Shown here piece by piece: positions 89 to 23,795 of a stretch of DNA of 64,000 bases. Source of the DNA: Myxococcus stipitatus. Its GTDB lineage: Bacteria; Myxococcota; Myxococcia; Myxococcales; Myxococcaceae. The stretch covers positions 1-64,000 of the forward strand of contig NZ_JAKCFI010000018.1 in the NCBI RefSeq assembly GCF_021412625.1, given 5' to 3'. The notes below the pieces were generated by a model. It did no database searches and was not told the origin of the DNA. It saw nothing but the letters and a program-made list of their open reading frames with translations. Position 1 is the stretch's first letter. Each line of letters starts with the position of its first letter. The position numbers and the translations under genes were made by a program.

Positions 89-531
89 TGCTTCCTGCCT
101 GCTCTCGCCCCCAGGGCGTCGTCAGCTAGGCATGTCAGCCGAGGCGACAACTTCCCTGACACAGGGGGAGAGTGTCCGGGCCCACGCCCGCCATGTGCAG
201 AGGGCTTTGATCAATGACGCTGGGACTGCCCATGGCGAGAGCACGGCTGGCCCTGACTCGACCGTCTCCAAGGGGTGGGCACATCGCTGTCCCCTTCCGC
301 CTCTAGGTAACGCCTTCGCGTGTCCTGTTGCCTTCGGCCTCGATTTGGTACCTTCGAAATAGGTGAGCCTTTCTTCGGTAAAGGTTCACCCACAGACTCG
401 GCACGTCGCAGACCCATTCTCTTTGAACAGCAGCGTTGCCGCCGCGCGACGACTACCGTTCTCTCGGCCAGCGAAGGCAACTTGCTGAGGCCGAGTTCGT
501 CCGGCACGGGTGCACCGATGTCCCCGAAAGC
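89..531. other. Gene-poor stretch between the transposase fragment and element copy A
   Basis: No convincing gene was found on either strand. The open frames here have codon use unlike the neighbouring genes and no recognisable motif. The only structure I see is the inverted repeat at 362-390. The stretch probably contains the upstream end of the IS3-type element and the far side of the break in the rluA-like gene, but I cannot place either boundary. The missing 3' half of the rluA-like gene is not here. Confidence 0.5.
362..390. repeat. Imperfect inverted repeat (8-base arms)
   Basis: GGTGAGCC (362-369) is followed after 13 bases by GGTTCACC (383-390). The arms pair with one G-T type mismatch. 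No T-run follows on either strand, so this is not a typical intrinsic terminator. It lies between two transposon-derived sequences and could be an element end or a simple hairpin. Function unknown. Confidence 0.4.
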
Positions 532-805
532 TCCCTCAAGCGGGGGCGGAGCCGGGGCTGGAGGAGGAGAGCCCGGCCCTGGCTGCGACAGGGGAGTCGG
601 CGAAGGAGCGCACGCCGCGATTAGTTGGATTGGGCGGGACTGCTGCTGACCTGCCTGGGTCGCTTGGGCCAGCATGTGCCCCGAGGGGCGGCACGGCCTC
701 TGCTCCGGCCCGGCGCACAGCCCGCGCGTCACCCTCCAGCGGCCCTTCTTGGCCCCTCTGCACCAGCCCGCCGCCCTCAACTGGGCTCCTATCCGTCCTA
801 TACTT
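532..805 (+). mobile_element. IS91-type transposase 3' module, copy A (internally deleted)
   Basis: This 274-base module starts at TCCCTCAAGCGG and ends at CCGTCCTATACTT, the same ends as copies B and C. The transposase frame gives EPGLEEESPALAA and then RTPRL, followed by a 4-base insertion (AGTT) that shifts the frame. It then jumps, after GGACTGCTGC, directly to the 3' flank found in copy B, losing about 245 bases that include the zinc-knuckle region. It sits inside the catalytic domain of the rluA-like gene on the minus strand. No target duplication is visible, as expected for IS91-type rolling-circle elements. It cannot encode transposase. Confidence 0.8.
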
Positions 806-1338
806 TCGGGCGGATTGCCGAGGACGAGCGTCCAGTAGCGCTTGTCGACCTGCTTCTCCTGGAACGCGCGCAGCATCCCCGCCGCGGCCGCATCCGTGCG
901 CGCGAAGGCGAGGCAGCCGCTCGTCTCACGGTCCAGCCGGTGCACCACGCCGGGCTGCGCCAGTCCCTCCACGTCGAACGGAGGCCGCTGCGTGGCGAGC
1001 AATCCCACCACGGACGGCATGCGTCCCTCCGGCTCCACGACCAGCCCCGCAGGCTTGTCCACGATGACGAGGGCCGCGTCGTCATGGAGCACCGGCAGCG
1101 TGGGCCCCTGGATGGAAGCAGCGGGCGCGGCGCGAGGCTCCGGCCGCTCGATTTCGATTTCCTCTCCGCCCCACAGCTTGCGCGTGGGCTGGCACTTCTT
1201 GCCCCGGATGCGCACCGCGCCCGAGTCGATGAGCGCCCGCACTTGCTCCGGCGTGAAGCCCGGCACGTGCTTCGTGAGGAAACGGTCGAGCCGCTCGCCG
1301 GCGGCCTCGCGGGGGACCTGGACCTTCTGCTGCGCCAT
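806..1338 (-). pseudogene. RluA-type pseudouridine synthase, 3' half lost to element A
   Basis: The product would isomerise uridine to pseudouridine in 23S rRNA or tRNA. It starts at ATG 1338 with an S4 RNA-binding domain (about residues 10-65, with GERLDRFL and GAVRI). The catalytic domain follows with DKPAGLVV and the family signature HRLDRETSG, whose Asp is the catalytic residue. The protein then runs to RYWTLVLGNPPE and stops resembling the family exactly where copy A begins. Intact relatives have roughly 100 more residues. The minus frame stays open through copy A and on to about position 211, so a chimera could be translated, but it lacks the C-terminal half of the active site. I regard it as non-functional. 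An intact paralogue elsewhere is likely. Confidence 0.85.
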
Positions 1339-1404
1339 GTCCCTCCGTCTCCCAATGTGCGCGGCGAGTCAATGTCGGCGCGCCTTCTCCATCTCCAGGC
1401 GTCC

Positions 1405-1582
1405 AACGAGGCACGGTGCAGGGCGCATGAAGCCCCCCTTCGTCTTCGCTACCACCGCCATGCTCTTGGCATTGCTGGCCGTCCAGCCAGGCGAACGAGG
1501 TCCGGTGCGAGGCGCATGAAGTACCCCTTCGTCTTCACCACCGCCGCCGTGCTCTTGGCGTTCCTGGCCATCCAGCTCGGAG
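1405..1582 (+). repeat. 89-base imperfect tandem duplication of a gene start
   Basis: Bases 1405-1493 and 1494-1582 are tandem copies differing at about 13 positions (roughly 84% identical by eye). Each copy carries AACGAGG, a GGTGC segment, GGCGC and then ATGAAG with the first hydrophobic codons of the phosphatase gene. The unit length is not a multiple of three, so the upstream copy encodes a separate short peptide instead of extending the protein. Confidence 0.85.
1427..1519 (+). CDS. 30-codon leader ORF made by the duplication, overlapping the phosphatase start
   Basis: The ATG at 1427 opens a frame for MKPPFVFATTAMLLALLAV followed by QPGERGPVRGA. Its TGA stop (1517-1519) overlaps the ATG of the next gene in an ATGA junction. 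The first 19 residues mirror the first transmembrane segment of the phosphatase (MKYPFVFTTAAVLLAFLAI). Such an overlap normally gives translational coupling by a terminating ribosome. The ORF arises directly from the 89-base tandem duplication. It may be a fossil, a coupling leader or a small hydrophobic peptide. The ribosome binding sites of both starts are weak. Confidence 0.45.
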   Translation: MKPPFVFATTAMLLALLAVQPGERGPVRGA

Positions 1583-4837: not shown

Positions 4838-5947
4838 ATGAACGCCCTCAGCCGCCTCGCCGCCCTGCTCGTCTGCCTGTCCCTGCCCGCCCTCGCCGAC
4901 CCGTGGGAGACGCTCGCACCCGGGTTGGAGCTGGCGGAGTTCGATGCACACCTGAAGTCCACCGTGGGCGACTCGCGCGTCACCATGGTGCGCGTGGACG
5001 TGGCGCGCCGGCCGGTGCGGCTGTTGAGCGCGCGGGTGGAGGGCCACGCGCCGGAGCCGACGGCGGAGCGGTGGGCGGCGCTGCACGGGCTCATCGCAGT
5101 CACCCATGCGGGCATGTTCCATCCGGGCGGCGGGCCCGTGGGCCTGGCAAGGACGGAGGGGCGCGAGCTCAATGCCTCGCGCCGCAAGGACTACCGCACG
5201 TTCCTGGTGCTGAATCCCCGGGAGAAGGGCCTGCCGCCGGTGCAGCTCCTCGACGCGGGGTGTGACGACGTGGAGTCGCTGCTGCCTCGCTACGGCACGG
5301 TGCTCCAGTCGCTGCGCATGATGGACTGCACGGGGCGCAACACGTGGAAGTCCCAGCCGCGCGAGTGGAGCACCGCGGCGCTCGGCATCGATGGCCAGGG
5401 CCGGCTGCTGATGATGCATGCGCGCTCGCCGTACCGCACGCATGACTTCATCGAGGTGGTCCGCCGGCTGCCCCTGGGCCTGAAGCGGATGATGTACCTG
5501 GAGGGCGGACCCGAAGCCTCGCTGCACGTCGCCGCGCCGGGACGCACCGTGCGCAGGGTGGGCAGCTACGAGACGGGCTTCAACGAGAACGACGACAACA
5601 CCCGCTACTGGGCCCTGCCCAACGTGCTCGGCGTGATGGCTCCCTCAAGCGGGGGCGGAGCCGGGGCTGGAGGAGGAGAGCCCGGCCCTGGCTGCGACAG
5701 GGGAGTCGGCGAAGGAGCGCACGCCGCGATTGGATTGGGCGGGACTGCTGCGCCGGACGTTCGCGCTGGATGTCTTCGCCTCCTCTCGGTGTGGAGGCCG
5801 CAGGAGGGGGCTGGCATACCTGACGGCCCCCGGTGGGGGGCGCGCCATTCTGGAGCACCTGGTATTGCCCTCGCGGCCTGCGAAGCTGGCCCCGGCACAG
5901 GGTCCACCCCAGAGCGCGTGGTGTTGAGCCCCAAGCACCCGCTGTGA
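4838..5947 (+). CDS. Phosphodiester glycosidase (NAGPA/DUF2233) with a foreign C-terminal tail
   Basis: Residues 1-20 are a secretion signal (LLVCLSLPALADP). The rest to about residue 265 is a phosphodiester glycosidase domain of the NAGPA/DUF2233 family. Visible motifs are THAGMFHP, ALGIDGQGRLLMMHARS, MYLEGGPEASL and the usual terminal signature WALPNVLGV. These enzymes cleave phosphodiester or glycosidic bonds in cell-surface polymers, probably in the periplasm here. Family members normally end a few residues after NVLGV. Here element copy B begins six bases later, and translation continues about 105 residues through a non-transposase frame of that element to a TGA at 5945-5947. The catalytic domain looks complete, so activity may survive. 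Whether the tail is tolerated is unknown. Confidence 0.85.
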   Translation: MNALSRLAALLVCLSLPALADPWETLAPGLELAEFDAHLKSTVGDSRVTMVRVDVARRPVRLLSARVEGHAPEPTAERWAALHGLIAVTHAGMFHPGGGPVGLARTEGRELNASRRKDYRTFLVLNPREKGLPPVQLLDAGCDDVESLLPRYGTVLQSLRMMDCTGRNTWKSQPREWSTAALGIDGQGRLLMMHARSPYRTHDFIEVVRRLPLGLKRMMYLEGGPEASLHVAAPGRTVRRVGSYETGFNENDDNTRYWALPNVLGVMAPSSGGGAGAGGGEPGPGCDRGVGEGAHAAIGLGGTAAPDVRAGCLRLLSVWRPQEGAGIPDGPRWGARHSGAPGIALAACEAGPGTGSTPERVVLSPKHPL

Positions 5948-6133
5948 CCTGGAAGCCCACGCCCCTGCGGCCTGCCGCCTGGCTGGGCCGCTTGGGCCGG
6001 CATGTGCCCCGAGGGGCGGCACGGCCTCTGCTCCGGCCCGGCGCACAGCCCCCAGGGCACCCGGCCGCAGCTATCCTCGGCCCCTCTTCACCAGCCCGCC
6101 GCCCTCAACTGGGCTCCTATCCGTCCTATACTT
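5641..6133 (+). mobile_element. IS91-type transposase 3' module, copy B (longest copy)
   Basis: This 493-base copy contains the most of the family. In the transposase frame it reads RLDWAGLLRRTFALDVFA, then SRCGGRRRGLAYLTAPGGG, then AILEHLVLPSRPAKLAP, with a stop at 5925-5927. That is the C-terminal zinc-knuckle and tail of IS91/ISCR-like transposases. Here the first knuckle Cys is replaced by Ser. About 206 bases of non-coding 3' flank follow, ending CCGTCCTATACTT. The left end can fold as a hairpin (GGCTCC near 5638 pairing with GGAGCC about 13 bases later). The copy lies between the 3' ends of the glycosidase and the convergent FAD oxidase gene. Confidence 0.85.
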
Positions 6134-6160
6134 CGAGCAGGGGCTTGGGCGAATGGTGGC

Positions 6161-8401: not shown

Positions 8402-8697
8402 TCCCTCAAGCGGGGGCGGAGCCGGGGCTGGAGGAGGAGAGCCCGGCCCTGGCTGCGACAGGGGAGTCGGCGAAGGAGCGCACGCCGCGATTGGATTGGG
8501 CCGGACTGCTGCGCCGGACGTTCGCGCTGGATGTCTTCGCCTGCTCTCGGTGTGGAGGCCGCAGCATGTGCCCCGAGGGGCGGCACGGCCTCTGCTGCGG
8601 CCCGGTGCACAACCCCCAGGGCACCCGGCCGCAGCTATCCTCGGCCCCTCTTCACCAGCCCGCCGCCCTCAACTGGGCTCCTATCCGTCCTGTACTT
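8402..8697 (+). mobile_element. IS91-type transposase 3' module, copy C (internally deleted)
   Basis: This 296-base copy has the shared left end TCCCTCAAGCGG and right end CCGTCCTGTACTT. The transposase frame is uninterrupted from EPGLEEESPALAA through LDWAGLLRRTFALDVFA to CSRCGGR, with both Cys of the knuckle kept. It then jumps straight to the 3' flank at GCATGTGCCCCGAGG, omitting about 200 bases present in copy B. It lies between a decapitated lipoprotein gene and the 3' end of the RND efflux gene, whose stop is 26 bases further on. Confidence 0.8.
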
Positions 8698-8723
8698 CAG
8701 CCCGGGCAGCAACAGGAGCAAGC

Positions 8724-13368: not shown

Positions 13369-14655
13369 TCACGCCCGGGTGTCCGTCCTGGCCCCCGCGC
13401 CTCGGGAGGCGGTGGCGCGGTGCCGCGCGAGCCACCGTCCCCGAACGGCGCCGTGCACGCGCCATGGCCGCCGAAGCGCAGGCCCGTGAGGATGACGACG
13501 GGAGGGGTCGGCGCACCCAGCCTCCCATCTCGAGAGTGTCCCGAAGTGGTCCTCGCCATCGATTCGCGCGAGCACCCCACCCGACTCCAGCGCCAGGCCC
13601 CGGGCGTCCCTCACCACGCCCTCCAGCGTGAGCCCGGGAGACAGCCGCACGTGCGCGCTGTCGACCCCGGCGGGGATGAGCCGCCGCGTCCTCGGCCACT
13701 CGTGATGCTGGATCTCCAGCAGGAAGGGCTCGTTGGGGACATTCGAGAGATAAATGCTTCCATCCGGATGGGTCCACCCGAAGCAGACGTCCGGTCCGTC
13801 GCGTCCGGGCAGCTCGGGCCACTTGCACCATATCGACGCCTCCCAGAGCCCCTTCCCGTCCGGTGCCTCCACGCGTCCGGTGAGCAGCCGCCCTGGCCCC
13901 AGCCTGATATCCCCGAGCCGGAACGTCGCGCCGGCCCGAGGCTCGAGCTTCCGGAGCGCGGGAGCGAATCCCTTGGCGGAGACGCTCACGTACAGCGGCT
14001 TGTCTCCATGGATGGGGAAGGACAGGGAGAAGCGCCCCTGGGCGTTCTTGAACGGCTCGTGCGCCACCTGGAAGGAAGGGATGGGACGGCCCCGAGCATC
14101 CACCACCCGGCCGCTCACCCGGACCGCGTCGCAGACGCTCGCCTCGCACTTCGACACGAGCCGCAAGGACCCCGGCTGCGCGTCCGGGACCTTCACGCGC
14201 TGCGACTCGCCATGGCCCTGCGCCTTCGCGGACACGGTCGCCTCACCCGGCGGCACGTGCTCGAACGCGAGGTCCCCGTTGCGCGACGTCGCCCGGCGAC
14301 TCAGCAGCTTCGTCCCTCCGTCCAGTTCCAGGTTGAGCTCCGCGTGTCCCCCCTGGATGGCCACGCCGCGCTCGTCGACGAGCCGGCCACGAAAGCGGCG
14401 CGTGCCCTGGAGGTCCAGCGTGAGCATCTGAGCGTCGCCCTCGAAGCGAAGCTCGCGGGCGGCGGTCCGGCACTCCTCCTGCGTGTCGAGGGCCAAGGAC
14501 ACGCGGTATCTGCCGGGAACCATCCCGTCGAACCTCGCGCTCCCGTCCTTGCCCACCCGCTGACCCCGGGAGGTGGTCCGGACCTCGCGGTGTCCGAGCG
14601 GTCCATCCACGTGGATCCAGACGGGATGAGGCCAGCCCCGGGGGAGCACGACGGC
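13369..14655 (-). pseudogene. Carboxypeptidase-regulatory-like (Ig-type repeat) protein, 5' end removed by element D
   Basis: The clear part (about 14640 to 13540) encodes several Ig-like carboxypeptidase-regulatory repeats: RFDGMVPGRYRVSLALD, RFRGRLVDERGVAIQGG, VRVSGRVVDARGRPIPSF, FRLGDIRLGPGRLLTGRV and LEGVVRDARGLALESGG. Such proteins are usually secreted or lipid-anchored in myxobacteria. The N-terminus and signal peptide are missing. At 14655 the frame runs into the antisense of element D, giving a Pro-rich stretch (PGPGSPPPAPAPPPLEGA) that stays open to about 14928. At the 3' end the sequence loses family character after about 13540 and terminates at 13369, possibly through a frameshift. 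The gene is probably dead at both ends. Confidence 0.7.
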
Positions 14656-14857
14656 TCCCTCAAGCGGGGGCGGAGCCGGGGCTGGAGGAGGAGAGCCCGG
14701 CCCTGGCTGCGACAGGGGAGTCGGCGAAGGAGCGCACGCCGCGATTGGATTGGGCGGGACTGCTGCGCCGGACCTTCGCGCTGGATGTCTTCGCCTGCTC
14801 TCGGTGTGGAGGCCGCACGAAGGTGCTGGCATACCTGACGGCCCCCGGTGGGGGGCG
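14656..14857 (+). mobile_element. IS91-type transposase 3' module, copy D (right end missing)
   Basis: This 202-base copy has the shared left end TCCCTCAAGCGG, with a hairpin-forming GGCTCC...GGAGCC. The transposase frame is intact through LDWAGLLRRTFALDVFA, CSRCGGRTKVLAYLTAPGGG and then RHK-stop. Identity with copy B ends at GGTGGGGGGCG, where B continues to ILEHL. Unlike A-C it has no 3' flank and no CCGTCCTATACTT end, so either the right part was deleted or it inserted from one defined end only. Confidence 0.8.
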
Positions 14858-23600: not shown

Positions 23601-23795
23601 TCAGGACTCCGGGGTCGCCGGGGCCGCCGCCGTCTTGGCCTTGCTCGTGCGCTTGCGGGCAGGGGCCTTGCGGGCCGTCTTGCGGGCGCTGGTCTTCTTC
23701 GCCGCCGCCTTCTTCGCGGTCTTGCCAGCCGTCTTGCGGGTGGTGGTCTTCTTCGCCTTCGCGGACTTCGCGGCGGACTTCTTCTTAGCGGCCAT
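23601..23795 (-). CDS. Histone H1-like Lys/Ala-rich DNA-binding protein
   Basis: This 64-residue protein is almost entirely Lys, Ala, Thr and Arg: MAAKKKSAAKSAKAKK, then repeated TxRKTAxK blocks and KRTSKAKTAAAPATPES. There is no folded core. This composition matches bacterial H1-like C-terminal-tail proteins that coat or bridge DNA in the nucleoid. It has its own consensus-like promoter and a strong terminator, so it is an independent and probably abundant transcript with a leader of about 70 bases. A spacer palindrome in the promoter suggests control by a repressor or autoregulation. Confidence 0.85.
   Translation of the reverse strand: MAAKKKSAAKSAKAKKTTTRKTAGKTAKKAAAKKTSARKTARKAPARKRTSKAKTAAAPATPES

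Follow-up and report, generated by a model that had tools for sequence, protein, structure and literature searches.

Architecture of the phosphatase locus

The locus lies in a window of 64,000 nucleotides of Myxococcus stipitatus DNA, which is the whole stretch that was analyzed. It comprises a phosphatase gene, a tandem duplication spanning the start of this gene, and a short upstream ORF (the leader) whose stop codon overlaps the phosphatase start codon. The coordinates of all features are given in Table 1.

Table 1. Features of the phosphatase locus, with positions given for the window.
Feature	Position	Strand	Remarks
Dispersed repeat with IS91-like transposase fragment	530..805	+	Adjoins the truncated RluA gene
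Divergent RluA-type pseudouridine synthase gene	806..1338	-	Lacks its 3' part from 806 on; relatives have an intact gene
Tandem copy 1	1405..1493	+	22 nt of upstream sequence and 67 nt of gene start
Predicted -10 box of copy 1, decayed	1412..1417	+	CACGGT (ancestral TACGGT, T to C)
Leader ORF, 30 codons, hydrophobic	1427..1519	+	ATG 1427, TGA 1517-1519
Tandem copy 2, genuine phosphatase gene start	1494..1582	+	5 differences from L003, the single-copy locus of the nearest relative
Predicted -10 box of copy 2, decayed	1501..1506	+	TCCGGT (ancestral TACGGT, A to C)
ATGA stop/start overlap	1516..1519	+	Predicted translational coupling site; from the sequence
Membrane-anchored DSP/PTP-type phosphatase, 228 aa	1516..2202	+	ATG 1516; PF22784; CX5R

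The N-terminal half of the phosphatase is hydrophobic, and behind it lies a CX5R phosphatase domain with the motif HCAQGHGR intact. It matches the Pfam family PTP-SAK (PF22784; 4e-11, 43.6 bits against a cut-off of 27), and the CX5R motif together with this significant domain match identifies it as a DSP/PTP-type phosphatase. The order of the two halves is that of the PRK12361-like membrane DSP phosphatases. In contrast to these, the protein lacks the C-terminal half of the NCBIfam model PRK12361 and matches the N-terminal part of the model (2.9e-24) with a score below the cut-off. The gene stayed under purifying selection on the window branch, with 13 changes at codon position 3 and one each at positions 1 and 2. 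An ATG at 1372 was considered as an in-frame upstream start of the phosphatase and was rejected, as it is out of frame in the single-copy relative and the duplication shifts the phase.

The first-pass annotation had described an 89-base duplication of the phosphatase start, with copies diverged by about 16%. Both the repeat finder and TRF recovered it. The repeat finder aligned 1405-1487 with 1494-1576 (83 nt, 84% identity, spacing 89) free of gaps, and the array has the highest TRF score (253) of the 13 tandem arrays within the 64-kb window. A match of this length and identity is not due to chance. Over the full 89-nt unit the copies differ at 16 positions. The numbers given in the first-pass annotation are correct.

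Likewise, the leader is a separate hydrophobic peptide of 30 residues (MKPPFVFATTAMLLALLAVQPGERGPVRGA), whose stop overlaps the actual start codon of the phosphatase as had been proposed. A comparison of the peptide with Pfam gave no match. At 1516-1519 the stop codon of the small ORF and the start codon of the next gene form an RTGA overlap.

Dispersed repeat fragments were found in the window at 530-805, 5639-5842, 5978-6144, 8402-8707 and 14650-14857, and also on contig 9. On translation they show similarity (44% over 36 aa) to the C-terminal part of IS91/ISCR1 transposases. Two of these IS91-like fragments lie exactly where the homology to related genomes ends, namely at 806 and at ~5644. 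In the phosphodiester glycosidase-like ORF 4838-5947, the natural C-terminus (as in the 296 aa ORF of the relative G064) has been lost, and the frame instead reads through into the IS91-like repeat. A second, intact RluA gene, 81% identical, is located elsewhere in the genome (G000:C2:483141) and is absent from G064, the nearest relative, which suggests that the truncated RluA was replaced by an acquired gene. Furthermore, a block GGCGAGTCAAYGTC at 1366-1378 (minus strand) is conserved in all five RluA-linked loci. Read on the minus strand, it contains TTGACT, which lies ~30 nt ahead of the RluA ATG and may be a -35 box.

Single-copy relatives and the origin of the ATGA overlap

Orthologs were surveyed in 96 genomes of the family Myxococcaceae, and clear orthologs of the phosphatase were found in 24 other genomes, with identities of 42-97%. 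The four closest loci, L003 (97% aa identity), L004, L006 and L005, have one copy of the unit only, and all four are syntenic, sharing the divergent RluA-type neighbor and the intergenic sequence. Across 27 genomes of the genus, every DNA match fell on copy 2 and none fitted copy 1 better. The comparison of orthologous loci suggested by the first-pass annotation thus found neither the duplication nor the ATGA linkage in any relative examined, and the RTGA-coupled linkage is not conserved between species. Judged from the sequences of these relatives and of one strain of the species, the duplication is lineage-specific and known from this genome only.

The ancestral 89-nt unit was reconstructed using L003 and L004. 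According to this reconstruction, copy 1 has acquired 15 derived changes and copy 2 a single one. A tree of the unit (89 sites only) did not distinguish a duplication before the split from L003 from one after it (AU p 0.50), and L003 may have lost the duplication. The 15 changes of copy 1 are more than some neutral yardsticks would permit after the split from L003, with P ranging from 0.0001 to 0.16 by yardstick.

The birth of the upstream ORF and its ATGA overlap in a single step, as the first-pass annotation envisaged, is supported by the single-copy state of the related loci. The phosphatase orthologs of close relatives all begin with ATGAA. With an ATGA gene start and a unit of 89 nt (2 mod 3), the frame opened in copy 1 runs into the TGA contained in the ATGA of copy 2. 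Random start-spanning duplications were simulated for 390 ATG genes of the M. stipitatus genome. ATGA coupling arose in 11.5% of them, a proportion that rises to 85% given an ATGA gene start and a length of 2 mod 3. The overlap follows automatically from these two properties and is therefore no evidence of selection.

The changes within the leader frame comprise 8 nonsynonymous and 4 synonymous substitutions. The nonsynonymous fraction of 0.67 is close to the neutral expectation of 0.69. In random trials, the leader remained intact after 15 changes with a probability of 0.44-0.52. Copy 1 drifted without constraint at the protein level, and the leader shows no sign of selection. Its Shine-Dalgarno potential is no different from that of copy 2 or L003 and therefore gives the leader no special support. 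The comparison of Shine-Dalgarno strength and RNA folding at both starts yielded nothing that convincingly separates the leader from the phosphatase start.

The first-pass annotation had also read the divergence of about 16% as a sign that the arrangement has persisted. This inference is weak, and taking persistence as evidence of function is not supported. Of the 16 differences, 15 arose in copy 1, the ratio of nonsynonymous to synonymous changes is neutral, the intactness of the leader is roughly a coin-flip, and the duplication is known from a single genome. With an intact frame expected about half of the time by chance and a neutral substitution ratio, persisted does not mean conserved, and even an intact, perfectly overlapping leader is no evidence of selection. 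The leader peptide most likely has no function.

A predicted leaderless promoter within the duplicated unit

In bacteria, the motif TANNNT located ~12 nt before the start codon marks leaderless (TA-led) genes, which lack a Shine-Dalgarno sequence. The signal was found in 8 of 33 delta-proteobacterial genomes (Zheng et al., 2011; PMC3160421). Upstream of the phosphatase ATG, 11 orthologs with several different upstream contexts carry TANNNTG with the T exactly at -15. The bases T-15, A-14, T-10 and G-9 are invariant across these 11 orthologs, whereas most neighboring positions vary. This places the motif of the ancestral locus within the ~10-15 nt expected for TA-led genes, of which these orthologs would be the true members. 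About half of the orthologs have different upstream contexts without the -10 box.

The occurrence of TANNNT was further analyzed in 2 Mb of the M. stipitatus genome together with the window, using 1,094 genes with a free upstream region, whose starts are uncurated and come from prediction with a simple codon-usage script. The motif was enriched 3.7-fold at -17 to -12, where it was found in 82 of the 1,094 genes. A Shine-Dalgarno match was present in 3 of these 82 genes compared to 413 of the other 1,012 (p = 6e-14). In this genome, the signal is positionally enriched and nearly exclusive of Shine-Dalgarno sequences. With ~7% of the free-upstream genes carrying TANNNT at -17 to -12, a sizeable leaderless class is predicted for this myxobacterium.

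The TANNNTG at -15 in the orthologs and the enrichment in the 2 Mb and the window make leaderless expression the most likely ancestral state of the phosphatase gene; the slip would then have copied -10 box and start together. This is where the description of a copied start region proved incomplete. The duplication itself stands, and within the unit there is also what is probably the -10 box of a leaderless promoter, now damaged in copy 1 and copy 2 alike. In each present box, unlike in those of the TA-led orthologs, one of the two invariant bases T and A is gone, and the A to C change in the box of copy 2 is the sole change specific to this copy in 89 bases. Within the leaderless zone of the 2 Mb and the window, neither of the present forms shows enrichment (0.97-fold for CANNNT and 0.72-fold for TCNNNT). 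Between 1300 and 1600, no TANNNT is left on the plus strand. A -35 element could not be recognized, and a scan for sigma-70 consensus promoters and terminators between 1200 and 2400 gave no hits.

Proposed course of events and competing explanations

Taken together, it is likely that an 89-nt slip duplicated the promoter and start of a leaderless gene, leaving a neutral leader, two decayed boxes and a phosphatase output that would partly depend on the leader. A replication slip or an unequal exchange in this lineage would have duplicated a unit consisting of the -10 box TACGGT and the first 22 codons of the presumably leaderless gene. At birth, the locus would have had two start sites. The transcript from the box of copy 1 would have had its 5' end at or near the leader AUG, with the phosphatase reached by termination-reinitiation at the ATGA, while the transcript from the box of copy 2 would have begun at the phosphatase AUG. 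Afterwards copy 1 drifted free of constraint on the protein, and in each -10 box one of the invariant bases T and A was lost.

As the phosphatase gene is under purifying selection, the protein is probably still made. Transcription would now start either from the weakened box of copy 1 or from an unrecognized promoter farther upstream. Either transcript would carry the leader, and reinitiation at the ATGA would be the natural route to the phosphatase. Since both possible transcripts include it, phosphatase output would partly depend on translation of the leader. The leader may thus be a neutral by-product that now perhaps ties phosphatase translation to its own. For termination-reinitiation in E. 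coli, 15 nt of the upstream gene have been described to suffice (PMC10666635). The overlap, with an intergenic distance of -4, is of the type described for termination-reinitiation at 4-nt overlaps (PMC6728339; PMC10666635), although the upstream partner here is a 30-codon duplicate of the start of the same gene instead of an independent gene.

Should neither -10 box still function, the gene would no longer be under its native promoter, and what the account says about leaderless expression would apply only to the past. That the phosphatase is being silenced, with both promoter copies dead, the RluA neighbor truncated and the whole segment decaying, is nevertheless unlikely. The lost invariant base in each box and the lack of any plus-strand TANNNT between 1300 and 1600 would fit, as would the ends of the RluA homology at 806 and of the glycosidase homology at ~5644, both at IS91-like fragments. 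Against this, the gene is intact, the CX5R motif is kept and its changes on the window branch lie overwhelmingly at codon position 3, although the loss may be very recent. The damaged native boxes would be dispensable if a long transcript, antisense to the truncated RluA, ran into the leader and the phosphatase from a new promoter located where the IS91-like fragment ends (TATACT, 799-804). The sequence matches TATAAT in 5 of 6 positions, sits right at the end of the repeat and is oriented toward the phosphatase, but no clear -35 match was seen by eye, the sigma-70 scan covered 1200-2400 only, and the sequence recurs, identical or in variant form, in other copies of the repeat. This speculative reading is considered improbable.

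Selection on the leader, either as a hydrophobic small protein or as a coupling device, would account for a start, frame and ATGA that are intact despite 15 changes. In Mycobacterium tuberculosis, RTGA-coupled small ORFs keep the coupling and not the peptide sequence (PMC4633059), which would also yield a neutral substitution ratio. Yet the leader is known from one genome only, its substitution ratio is neutral and its intactness is about half expected by chance. In addition, the ATGA arises automatically, the Shine-Dalgarno potential is not distinctive and the -10 box of copy 1 is damaged, which makes a selected leader quite unlikely. Least probable of all is that the copies were divergent from birth, the unit having come by recombination with an allele of another lineage and not by a slip followed by drift. 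The excess of changes in copy 1 over some yardsticks speaks for such an origin, but none of the loci in the 27 genomes of the genus is closer to copy 1 than to copy 2, and the nearest sequence to copy 1 is copy 2 itself.

The architecture of the locus has a counterpart in known coupled ORFs. Small ORFs of the leaderless, RTGA-coupled kind form an enriched class in M. tuberculosis (23 of 220 compared to 32 of 1,000 random; Shell et al., 2015; PMC4633059). Like these, the leader is a short ORF at a leaderless-type start, joined by ATGA to the next gene and with an unconstrained peptide sequence. It differs in that its origin is visible as a tandem duplication of the gene's own start, while its predicted -10 box is damaged and its linkage is not conserved. 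In a literature search, no paper was found on coupled leaders originating by duplication of a gene start.

In leaderless genes, the promoter box and the start codon lie within some 20 bases, so that one short duplication copies both and can at once create a transcribed, ATGA-coupled upstream ORF. The main value of the locus is to illustrate how an upstream ORF can arise already coupled, with no selection involved, and to suggest a route for leaderless genes that can be tested. It remains doubtful that start-spanning duplication of a leaderless promoter and start is a general one-step origin of RTGA-coupled leaderless small ORFs and that, in addition, the phosphatase now depends on reinitiation from its newborn leader. 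The idea does provide a countable hypothesis for the origin of many unconserved coupled small ORFs in high-GC bacteria.

In 2 Mb of the M. stipitatus genome, 54 tandem arrays with a period of at least 40 were detected, one of which spans a predicted gene start (L160, G000:C2:282487-282643; 81 nt, 84%), with a period that is in frame. Start-spanning tandem duplications are uncommon, yet not unique. Elsewhere in the window, a 54-nt in-frame tandem repeat on the minus strand (23667-23773) resembles a lysine/alanine-rich histone H1-like tail. Positions 1-168 form the contig end and lie within a repeat common to the starts of contigs 15, 25 and 26 and to sites in contigs 5 and 20; the contig end is probably an assembly break at this repeat.
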